This document shows, one piece after another, positions 1,059 to 5,182 of a stretch of DNA of 54,109 nt (position 1 is its first letter; every line of letters starts with the position of its first letter). This DNA comes from Thiohalobacter sp. (GTDB lineage Bacteria; Pseudomonadota; Gammaproteobacteria; Thiohalobacterales; Thiohalobacteraceae). Location of the stretch: the NCBI RefSeq assembly GCF_027000115.1, contig NZ_JALTON010000032.1, forward strand, positions 1 through 54,109, read 5' to 3'. The notes under the pieces are model-generated. The model worked only from the letters and a program-made list of their open reading frames with translations, was not told where the DNA came from and searched no databases. A program made the position numbers and the translations under genes.

Positions 1059-1090
1059 AAAAGTTGGCACACCCCGGCGAGGGAGATGGC

Positions 1091-1510
1091 ATGCGAGCAA
1101 GAGTGAAATGGGTCGAGCAGGCGACCTTCATCGGTGAATCGGGGAGCGGCCATGCCGTGGTCATGGACGGCCCGCCCGACAGCGGCGGTCGCGATCTGGG
1201 CGTGCGGCCGATGGAGATGCTGCTGCTGGGCATGGGCGGCTGTACCGCCTTCGACGTGGTCTACATCCTCGGCCGCCAGCGCCAGCCGGTGACCGATTGC
1301 GTGGTCGAGCTGGAGGCCGAGCGCGCGGCCGAGCCGCCGAAGGTGTTCACCCGCATCCATGTGCACTTCATCGTCACGGGCAAGGGGTTGTCGGAGAAGC
1401 AGGTCGCGCGTGCGGTGGCGCTCTCGGCCGAGAAGTACTGCTCGGCGTCCATCATGCTCGGCAAGGCCGCCGAGATCAGCCACGACTACGAAATCCGCGA
1501 GGCGGAATGA
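1091..1510 (+). CDS. OsmC-family peroxide/redox protein
   Basis: 139 residues of the OsmC/Ohr fold. The two family cysteines are present: Cys51 in GMGGCTAFD and Cys117 in SAEKYCSAS, which form the peroxidatic pair in characterised OsmC/Ohr enzymes. The tail (GKAAEISHDYEI) is typical of the YhfA-like subgroup found beside crp. ATG 1091 is preferred over an in-frame TTG at 1064 because GAGGGAG (1079-1085) is a well-placed RBS for the ATG. It sits downstream of the perfect CRP site. The physiological substrate cannot be read from sequence. Confidence 0.9.
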   Translation: MRARVKWVEQATFIGESGSGHAVVMDGPPDSGGRDLGVRPMEMLLLGMGGCTAFDVVYILGRQRQPVTDCVVELEAERAAEPPKVFTRIHVHFIVTGKGLSEKQVARAVALSAEKYCSASIMLGKAAEISHDYEIREAE

Positions 1511-2973: not shown

Positions 2974-3618
2974 TCAGGTCCAGTAGGCCGTCCCCGTCAT
3001 CACCTTCGAGCCGAGCCGCATCAACGCGCGCACCGGCGCGGGCAGCGGGGCGCCGCCGGCCTCCAACGCGGTGGTGCCGTGATGGGCCTCGTCGATCTTC
3101 ATCTGTTCCAGGATCGCGCGGCTGCGCGCGTCCTGCGGCGGCAGCCGACGCAGGTGTCCATCCAGGTGTTCCACCACCTGGCGCTCGGTCTCGGCCACGA
3201 AGCCCAGGCTCCACTTGTCGCCCGCGGCACCGGCCAGCGCGCCCAGGGTGAAGGCGCCGAGGTAGAAGGGGGGATTGAGCAGGCTGGTGCGGCTGCCCAG
3301 TTCCTGAACCCGCCGTTCGCACCAGTCCAGATGATCGTTCTCCTCCTGCGCGGCCCGCTCCATGCTGTCGCGCACCGCATCCAGCCGCGCCGTCAGCGCC
3401 TGGCCCTGGTAGAGCGCCTGGGCGCACACCTCGCCGGTGTGGTTGACCCGCATCAGTCGCGCCGCCTCGGTGCGCTCCGCCTCGGACAGTTCCGCTTCCG
3501 GGATGTCCTCGGCGGGGTAGGGGCGCTCGGTGACCAGGGGACGGCCGAACAGCGTGCGCAGGGCCTGGTCGAAGTTGGCGATCAGGTGGTCGAAGGGGGT
3601 GTAGCTGCGCTCGCTCAT
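2974..3618 (-). CDS. coq7: 3-demethoxyubiquinol 3-hydroxylase, diiron type (Coq7)
   Basis: Hydroxylates demethoxyubiquinol in ubiquinone biosynthesis. From ATG 3618 it is 214 residues. The diiron ligands are visible: Glu63 (NHTGE), Glu93-x-x-His96 (EENDH), Glu145, and Glu177-x-x-His180 (DEAHH). A longer in-frame start at 3705 would add 29 non-conserved residues read through a repeat and is rejected. It converges with speD, giving a crp-osmC-speD-coq7 order like that in Pseudomonas. Two flavin hydroxylases of the same pathway lie at 19928-22413, so this organism combines the Coq7 and UbiH/UbiI types. Confidence 0.93.
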
Positions 3619-3722: not shown

Positions 3723-4028
3723 ATGTACTACAAGCACCACGTCTTCTTCTGCACCAACCTCCGCGAGGACGGCCGTCCCTGCTGCCAGCGATTCGATGCC
3801 CGGGCCATGCGCGATCATGCCAAGGCGCGGACCAAGGCGCTGGGCATCGCCGGGCCGGGCGGCGTGCGCGTCAACACTGCCGGCTGCCTGGACCGCTGCG
3901 GCGAGGGTCCGGTACTTGTGGTCTATCCGGAGGGTGTCTGGTATTCCTATGTGGATCAGGAAGATATCGACGAAATCATTGACGAGCACCTGGTCCATGG
4001 CCGCCCGGTGGAACGCCTGAAGATCTAG
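3723..4028 (+). CDS. thioredoxin-like [2Fe-2S] ferredoxin
   Basis: 101 residues with the cysteine pattern of the thioredoxin-fold [2Fe-2S] ferredoxin family (Shethna-like): Cys10, the Cys20-Cys21 pair in REDGRPCCQRF, then Cys55 and Cys59 in NTAGCLDRCGEGPVL. The C-terminus (YSYVDQEDIDEIIDEHL) is typical of stand-alone members. ATG 3723 is chosen because homology starts at MYYKHHVFFC; upstream in-frame sequence is repeat-derived. There is no recognisable RBS because the heptamer array abuts the start. It probably transfers electrons; the partner is not indicated by the neighbours. Confidence 0.9.
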   Translation: MYYKHHVFFCTNLREDGRPCCQRFDARAMRDHAKARTKALGIAGPGGVRVNTAGCLDRCGEGPVLVVYPEGVWYSYVDQEDIDEIIDEHLVHGRPVERLKI

Positions 4029-4080
4029 CCCGAAATTTTTTCGTCGACAGGGGTTGACAACCGGGAATTAATATAAGAAC

Positions 4081-4197
4081 ATGCTTACATACTGATTTGC
4101 CGGGTCCCCCCTCATAGCCGGCAAGTCGGTACTCCTCCATCCTCCTTTGGTGGTTATTGAGCGCGGCAACCCTCCCTCTGGCGCCGCGCTTTTTTTT
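4081..4197 (+). ncRNA. candidate small RNA with C-rich loops and anti-Shine-Dalgarno tracts
   Basis: No ORF fits, yet this gap has the layout of a stand-alone short transcript. TTGACA (4054-4059) lies in an A+T-rich stretch and suggests a promoter, though the -10 is poor. A perfect 7-bp hairpin (TTGCCGG 4097-4103 / CCGGCAA 4118-4124) displays a loop containing six C's. An unpaired pyrimidine tract, ACTCCTCCATCCTCC (4131-4145), is complementary to Shine-Dalgarno sequences. A strong terminator ends it, and its loop also contains CCCTCCC. rplM has its own promoter downstream, so this is not obviously the rplM leader. It resembles in style, not by alignment, known C-rich-loop regulators such as Xanthomonas sX13 and alphaproteobacterial CUCCUCC RNAs. 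Confidence 0.5.
4161..4197 (+). terminator. strong rho-independent terminator upstream of rplM
   Basis: GCGCGGC (4161-4167) pairs with GCCGCGC (4183-4189) across a 15-base loop and is followed by eight T's (4190-4197). It could end the ferredoxin transcript, the candidate small RNA, or both. Confidence 0.9.
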
Positions 4198-4311: not shown

Positions 4312-4740
4312 ATGAAGACTTTCAGCGCCAAGCCGGAAACCGTGAAGCGCGACTGGTACGTCGTGGATGCGACGGGCAAGACCCTGGGTCGCCTGGCCGC
4401 CGAGGTTGCGCGCCGACTGCGCGGCAAGCACAAGGCCGAGTACACGCCGCACGTGGACACCGGTGACTACATCATTATCGTCAACGCCGACAAGGTCGCC
4501 GTGACGGGCCGCAAGGAACAGGACAAGATGTACCACCATCACACCGGGTACATCGGCAACCTCAAGTCCATCAGCCTCGGCAAGCTGCGCGCCAAGGCGC
4601 CGGAGCGGATCATCGAGAATGCGGTCAAGGGCATGCTGCCCAAGAACCCGCTGGGCCGCGCCATGTACCGCAAGCTCAAGGTCTACGCCGGCCCCGAGCA
4701 TCGGCATCAGGCCCAGCAGCCCAGGCCGCTGGACATCTGA
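4312..4740 (+). CDS. rplM: 50S ribosomal protein L13
   Basis: 142 residues, the exact size of bacterial L13. The start [20 protein letters not shown] and internal [10 protein letters not shown] and [20 protein letters not shown] are diagnostic. L13 binds 23S rRNA early in 50S assembly. It is followed 49 bases later by rpsI, the conserved bacterial rplM-rpsI pair. Upstream in-frame codons (from 4147) run through the terminator and are not coding. Confidence 0.98.
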
Positions 4741-4789: not shown

Positions 4790-5182
4790 ATGGCTCAGGA
4801 ACAGGTTTACGCCACCGGCCGTCGCAAGACCTCCACGGCCCGGGTCTTTCTCCGCAAGGGCAGCGGCAACATCATGGTCAACAAGCGCCCGCTGGACGAG
4901 TACTTCGGCCGCGAGACCGCACGCATGGTCGTGCGTCAGCCGCTGGATACCACGGAACTGAATGACGCCTTCGACATTCATGTCACCGTCACCGGCGGCG
5001 GCATGAGCGGCCAGGCCGGTGCCATTCGTCACGGCATCACCCGCGCCCTGATCAAGCACGACGAGTCGCTGCGGCCGGCGCTGCGCCGGGCCGGCTTCGT
5101 CACCCGCGACGCCCGCGAGGTCGAGCGCAAGAAGGTCGGCCTGCGCAAGGCACGTCGCGCCACCCAGTTCAGCAAGCGCTGA
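4790..5182 (+). CDS. rpsI: 30S ribosomal protein S9
   Basis: 130 residues as in E. coli S9, starting [20 protein letters not shown] and ending in the basic tail RRATQFSKR, which reaches toward the P-site tRNA. Co-transcribed with rplM. A GC-rich hairpin without a T-run follows at about 5188-5206, so transcription may end by another route before the repeat/pseudogene region. Confidence 0.98.

Follow-up and report, generated by a model that had tools for sequence, protein, structure and literature searches.

What is encoded in the short segment between the ferredoxin gene and rplM of this Thiohalobacter contig, and does it serve the ribosomal protein genes that follow it or messages elsewhere? 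The first-pass annotation had placed here a small RNA (sRNA) with a promoter-like start at 4081, a perfect 7-bp hairpin with a C6 loop, an exposed tract complementary to Shine-Dalgarno sequences (anti-SD) and a strong terminator, and had suggested a global regulator situated beside the ribosomal operon. The window referred to below is the whole stretch of DNA that was analysed (54,109 nt), in which the locus has the order crp-osmC-speD-coq7-ferredoxin-RNA-rplM-rpsI.

Extent and predicted anatomy of the RNA

The features of the locus are as follows.

1088..1510, + strand: osmC (Pfam PF02566), a neighbour common to RF02278-type loci
2974..3615, - strand: coq7 (Pfam PF03232), a neighbour common to Bordetella S17 and RF02278 loci
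3723..4028, + strand: thioredoxin-like 2Fe-2S ferredoxin gene, upstream of the RNA (Pfam PF01257 at 20.8 bits, below the cut-off of 24.8)
4054..4082, + strand: promoter by sequence, with -35 TTGACA at 4054-4059, a 17-nt spacer and a -10-like GAACAT at 4077-4082
4089..4197, + strand: predicted sRNA of about 109 nt, from the predicted start to the end of the U tract (fold, homologues, model R1)
4090..4131, + strand: hairpin 1, a 14-bp stem with G-U pairs, 4090-4103/4118-4131 (fold, covariation)
4131..4153, + strand: core 23-mer ACUCCUCCAUCCUCCUUUGGUGG (pattern conservation in class genomes and GTDB contigs)
4132-4138, + strand: anti-SD site 1, CUCCUCC (sequence)
4134-4139/4148-4153, + strand: hairpin 2, whose loop UCCUCCUU at 4140-4147 is anti-SD site 2 (fold)
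4159..4197, + strand: intrinsic terminator, stem 4159-4167/4183-4191 (fold, compensatory pairs)
4312..4740, + strand: rplM, encoding L13 (Pfam PF00572/PF00380 for rplM-rpsI)
4790-5182, + strand: rpsI, after rplM (same Pfam pair)

Judged from its letters, 4089-4197 (+) is a real sRNA gene with the predicted anatomy of an autonomous RNA of about 109 nt. The original proposal of an sRNA between the ferredoxin gene and rplM is borne out by the fold of this segment, which has a minimum free energy of -46.2 kcal/mol where dinucleotide shuffles give -28.2 +/- 2.9 (z -6.2), and by the presence of homologues in all ten other genomes of the family. The view that the anti-SD repetition is not a matter of chance is upheld by the same fold, by conservation and by the nine CTCC/CCTC words within the 109-nt RNA, which are the maximum of the 54-kb window (0.04% of 10,800 overlapping segments). 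Model R1, for which the window copy was among the 30 building sequences, matches the RNA at 71.4 bits and nothing else in the window.

Hairpin 1 is predicted to be closed by a 14-nt loop, GUCCCCCCUCAUAG, that holds the C6 run at 4106-4111. The perfect 7-bp hairpin of the first-pass annotation is the TTGCCGG/CCGGCAA pairing; its elements are present, but they form the upper half of the 14-bp stem, and the C6 run is part of a larger loop. The CTCCTCC-A-TCCTCC sequence does occupy 4132-4145, though not as a single open tract: the second half falls within the loop of hairpin 2, a helix that contains a U-U mismatch. The terminator is as first described, with a U8 tail (U tract 4190-4197) and CCCTCCC at 4170-4176 in the apical part.

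Upstream, the promoter-like sequence that had been noted is present as TTGACA-N17-GAACAT. The -10-like hexamer occupies 4077-4082, and the predicted start therefore falls at about 4089 rather than at 4081. Since this hexamer is atypical, a simple sigma-70 scan did not flag the window promoter. The hexamer sits in a conserved AT-rich stretch with the family consensus ATATTAGAAAAT, and TTGA(C/T)(A/G) occurs within 110 nt upstream in 100 of 139 unique homologues, most of these promoters having a GAAACT/GAAAAT-like hexamer 17 nt past it. In the window promoter and those of the homologues, TTGACA is also followed, some 11-12 nt on, by a conserved ATATTAG that runs into the unusual G-first -10-like hexamer (GAAAAT/GAAACT). 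ATATTAG and this hexamer might be signs of a regulator site or of an uncommon class of promoter.

Conservation of the core and variation of its flanks

A BLAST search at the DNA level recovered a homologue in the ten other same-family genomes and in eight from other families, which with the host's own makes 19 of 56. The 23-mer ACTCCTCCATCCTCCTTTGGTGG, with up to three mismatches, is present in 78 of 369 sampled genomes of the class, which in this database takes Betaproteobacteria into Gammaproteobacteria; a reversed control pattern is present in two. Matches are often exact and mostly single per genome, with two or three tandem copies in some cases. At least 118 stretches of GTDB contigs contain the exact 22-mer, and among the matches listed are Thiocapsa, Thioalkalivibrio, Halochromatium, Sedimenticola, Thiodiazotropha, Thiothrix, Thiomargarita and Arenicella, together with Acidiferrobacteraceae, many other Gammaproteobacteria and one member of the Gallionellaceae. 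By these matches, the 23 bases of the core have hardly changed among many sulfur-oxidising bacteria. In sets collected with the core pattern the core is invariant by design; the BLAST set (56 genomes) and the RF02278-model set (369 genomes) were collected without it, and the core is still present in most BLAST homologues and in many of the strongest RF02278-model matches. Conservation of the terminator alone had been named beforehand as the outcome that would count against the proposed RNA. The opposite was found, the CU-rich core being far better conserved than the terminator.

The flanking elements behave differently from the core. Of 69 unique homologues with a promoter, 94% have a significant hairpin (z below -2) ahead of the core, and in 58 of the 69 hairpin 1 ends 0-2 nt before it, with 54 different 3' stem ends. 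On these counts, the predicted hairpin 1 is kept as a structure while its stem sequence changes. In seven same-family sequences 99% of its cells are paired and compensatory changes occur, and covariation is 0.283 as against 0.193 for shuffles (2/500), a value that relatedness among the sequences can inflate. The pairs of hairpin 2 never vary and so yield no covariation signal, and the terminator displays compensatory pairs in the 30-sequence alignment. Hairpin 1 and the spacers vary by non-triplet indels, the core being kept at every position. Loop 1 is C-rich in 24 of the 69 unique homologues and the terminator loop in 34; from this distribution, C6 in loop 1 and CCCTCCC in the terminator loop are lineage-specific features. 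Thus, of the three anti-SD loops originally envisaged, it is the anti-SD core that is conserved, and the other two are traits of a lineage.

Tandem core copies, two or three in number, were observed in some Thiotrichaceae-type and other genomes (L040/L114, at three places within about 220 nt; G186:C27; G154:C83), an arrangement reminiscent of the tandem NmsRA/NmsRB of Neisseria.

Probable kinship with RF02278 and the shared neighbourhood

Comparison of the window with Rfam returned ar14 (32.9 bits), RF02278 (28.3), ncS16 (23.9) and NmsRb (22.4), all below threshold, the curated cut-off of RF02278 being 50 bits. The window aligns to the RF02278 model over positions 1-64, and alignment and fold together reveal the order of elements found in that family: a single-stranded CUCCUCCA, a CU-loop hairpin and an intrinsic terminator. 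When the RF02278 model was searched against the 369 class genomes, two matches exceeded the cut-off (67 and 54.5 bits) and were followed by a continuum from 48.7 bits down, within which many matches are core-bearing RNAs. RNAs with the same core reach 48.5 bits, and one from the Gallionellaceae, identical in the 22-mer, scores 51.8 bits and so exceeds the cut-off.

Detection also works in the reverse direction. The 30 exact-core RNAs behind model R1 included neither of the above-cut-off RF02278 RNAs, and the model recovers both (L180 and L181) at 35.5 and 38.6 bits, with E about 1e-9 to 1e-10. Those of its rows that carry organism titles are gammaproteobacterial contigs, and a few others (L152, L157, L165) are of unassigned origin; L157 closely resembles the Gallionellaceae RNA. 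R1 matches of about 25 bits across the phylum were read as mostly terminator-driven and were not counted.

The order osmC-coq7-RNA-rplM-rpsI is found in the window and its relatives, and the ferredoxin gene adjoins the RNA in many homologous loci. Among RF02278/S17-type loci, whose genomes are probably betaproteobacterial, as suggested by the RF02278 match, the order is coq7-osmC-RNA (L180, L181, L247, L249) or osmC-RNA-rplM-rpsI (L243, L245, L246, L248), and S17 adjoins coq7 in Bordetella pertussis (PMC11722255). The window RNA is thus accompanied by the same neighbours, coq7, osmC and rplM-rpsI, as RF02278/S17. Given the score continuum, the reciprocal detection and the shared neighbourhood, the window RNA and the betaproteobacterial S17/bdhR1 (RF02278) genes are most likely orthologs descended from a gene in the common ancestor of the two groups.

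Two other elements in the host genome deserve mention. A second candidate anti-SD RNA at G000:C18:13974-14027 (-) (locus L240/L250; R1 35.2 bits) contains ...GUACUCCUCCACCCCUGUGAGG... ahead of a strong terminator; it is 84-98% conserved in six of the ten other family genomes and may be a sibling sRNA. A third element, at G000:C53:91269-91326 (+) (locus L210), combines CUCCUCC with a terminator (CGACUCCUCCGACGCUGAAAAGCG...; RF02278 30.1 bits, R1 21.1 bits).

Possible function and known counterparts

The locus is very probably best explained as a stand-alone sRNA gene, an ortholog of S17/bdhR1 (RF02278) that would act as an SD-blocking repressor of several mRNAs. The RNA would be transcribed from its own TTGACA promoter and end at the intrinsic terminator, with hairpin 1 probably protecting the 5' end. 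Site 1 (CUCCUCC) and the UCCUCCUU loop of site 2 would pair with GGAGG-type ribosome-binding sites in a set of mRNAs and thereby block translation, the C6 and terminator loops may assist this pairing in the window lineage, and Hfq would most likely be bound at the U-rich 3' end. S17 is Hfq-enhanced and represses BP2158 via its CU-rich site 1, as demonstrated by compensatory mutation; in its absence about 90 genes rise, and complementarity close to the ribosome-binding site is seen in 70 of them (PMC11722255). TCA-cycle genes are repressed by the NmsRs, which are themselves subject to stringent control (PMC5362039). The window RNA carries the corresponding sites in matching order, and an hfq gene is present in the host genome, so that SD-blocking repression appears to be the mechanism with the best support. 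The RNA has the anatomy and conservation described above and is linked to RF02278 in sequence, structure and neighbourhood; by analogy with S17 and NmsR, it would be expected to depend on Hfq, to act in trans and to repress multiple genes, probably metabolic or transport genes.

As for individual targets, a search for 14-nt complements found 24 sites outside the RNA itself and 17 for the reversed control, with no standout; a single extended target was set aside on account of this similarity. Also rejected were gltA, sdhC and hfq, which are known for NmsR- and sX13-type RNAs: duplex energies at their starts are ordinary against the background of a rough ORF set from the window. S17 and NmsR lend plausibility to a global regulator as first imagined (PMC11722255, PMC5362039), although these searches establish no target.

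The position of the RNA, downstream of the ferredoxin gene and upstream of rplM on the same strand as both, invites two cis-oriented explanations. As a 5' UTR, the RNA would be a cis-acting leader or attenuator whose terminator controls the rplM-rpsI operon, and in 83 of 165 loci rplM is indeed found no more than 1.5 kb downstream (counts of loci rather than of independent genomes, some genomes being repeated). Another 20 loci lack the room, and the remaining 62 have room (at least 1.4 kb) but no rplM; in these the core and terminator are intact, as mostly are the promoter and hairpin 1. A leader should always be upstream of rplM, and its persistence in these 62 loci largely refutes that idea. 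The core-to-rplM distance varies from 136 to 1446 nt, RF02278-type RNAs occur at coq7-osmC with no rplM detected in the 3-kb loci, and the core mimics an anti-SD sequence and would not be an L13-binding site. The leader is therefore very unlikely, and adjacency to rplM-rpsI is probably an ancestral arrangement, though not an essential one. Less credible still, to the point of being extremely improbable, is that the segment is the mRNA of a small protein, despite the putative 32-residue frame of S17L (PMC11722255), or simply the ferredoxin gene's terminator, C-rich by coincidence: the RNA has its own conserved promoter, tolerates non-triplet indels in hairpin 1 and the spacers with the core intact, conserves that core far better than its terminator, and is present where the ferredoxin gene is undetected.

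The core contains CCUCCUU, which also occurs at the 3' end of 16S rRNA. It is conceivable, if distinctly unlikely, that the RNA is a ribosome-directed or global modulator that mimics this end and damps translation generally, with no defined target set. The lack of a special target that stands out would fit such a role, as would the naming of RF02278 RNAs for inhibition of E. coli growth on overexpression (PMC5688073, PMC11722255). However, overexpression of S17S left exponential growth of E. coli unimpaired and deletion of S17 altered a limited gene set (PMC11722255), and the conservation of nearly all 23 bases, stem and U-U mismatch included, would exceed what general SD pairing needs. A bolder extension of the SD-blocking repressor is speculative and rather unlikely: the RNA would rank among the most deeply conserved base-pairing sRNAs, as one ancestral gene of the osmC-coq7-rplM-rpsI region, older than the divergence of Beta- and Gammaproteobacteria, with a core frozen beyond seed pairing, for example by simultaneous contact with Hfq and the 30S platform or 16S 3' end, and would be a translation regulator coupled to ribosome synthesis.

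Anti-SD sRNAs as a kind, and the S17/RF02278 family itself, are already known, but the gammaproteobacterial extension appears to be unreported: the S17 paper makes no mention of Gammaproteobacteria (PMC11722255), and searches of the open-licence literature found neither the core letters nor a description of a gammaproteobacterial member. A regulator treated as betaproteobacterial (RF02278, S17) would thus belong to a much wider family, which the Rfam threshold misses in most of the tested Gammaproteobacteria, purple and colourless sulfur bacteria among them. The predicted promoter, start and core in cultured organisms (Thiocapsa, Thioalkalivibrio) make function and targets open to comparative testing, and a near-frozen 23-base core with changing flanks raises the question of what holds each base in place in an sRNA with multiple targets.

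Similar comparisons extend to the known RNAs of this kind. Xanthomonas sX13, which the first-pass annotation had invoked, likewise directs C-rich loops at G-rich sites near starts, but it uses CCCC loops and is Hfq-independent (PMC3771888). In the window RNA, two of the loops hold runs of three or more C. The Rfam search of the window gave no sX13 match at E<=10, the inclusion of an sX13 model in the Rfam copy being unconfirmed, and the closest relative is instead S17/bdhR1 (RF02278). The alphaproteobacterial ar14/NfeR1 (cuckoo RNAs; RF02344) also present anti-SD motifs in successive hairpins and gave the top Rfam score; ar14 was nonetheless rejected as the true family, as the window RNA falls below the cut-off of 58.8 bits and is without the CCUCCUCCC motif that ar14 has in each of three hairpins, and the model finds few relatives. 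In another gammaproteobacterial family, two loci of one genome (G022; L021 and L027) display several CU-rich hairpins with ar14 scores of 36.1 and 32.8 bits, below the cut-off.

Neisseria NmsRA/NmsRB (NmsRb = RcoF1, RF02877) resemble the window RNA in having a 5' hairpin, then CUCCUC-A-..CUCCUUU..GU.G, then a terminator, but they form a tandem pair, and the window RNA's NmsRb score is below the cut-off of 52. Bordetella pertussis S17 shares CU-rich sites at matching places, adjacency to coq7, a third site in the terminator and an Hfq-encoding host (PMC11722255). S17, compared here by description and not by aligned letters, is a 190-nt precursor processed by RNase E to a 67-nt form whose 5' end lies just ahead of site 1, and carries a small ORF (PMC11722255), whereas the window RNA is a predicted primary transcript of about 109 nt in which no such ORF was noted. 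The nearest relative is RF02278 (Betaproteobacteria toxic small RNA; bdhR1, Burkholderia ncS03/05/27/62), which has in common with the window RNA the CUCCUCCA tract, a CU-rich-loop hairpin with a UGG arm, a short linker and a GC terminator with a U tract; in the window RNA, by contrast, hairpin 2 is shorter and contains the U-U mismatch, and an extra 14-bp 5' hairpin with the C6 loop precedes the core.
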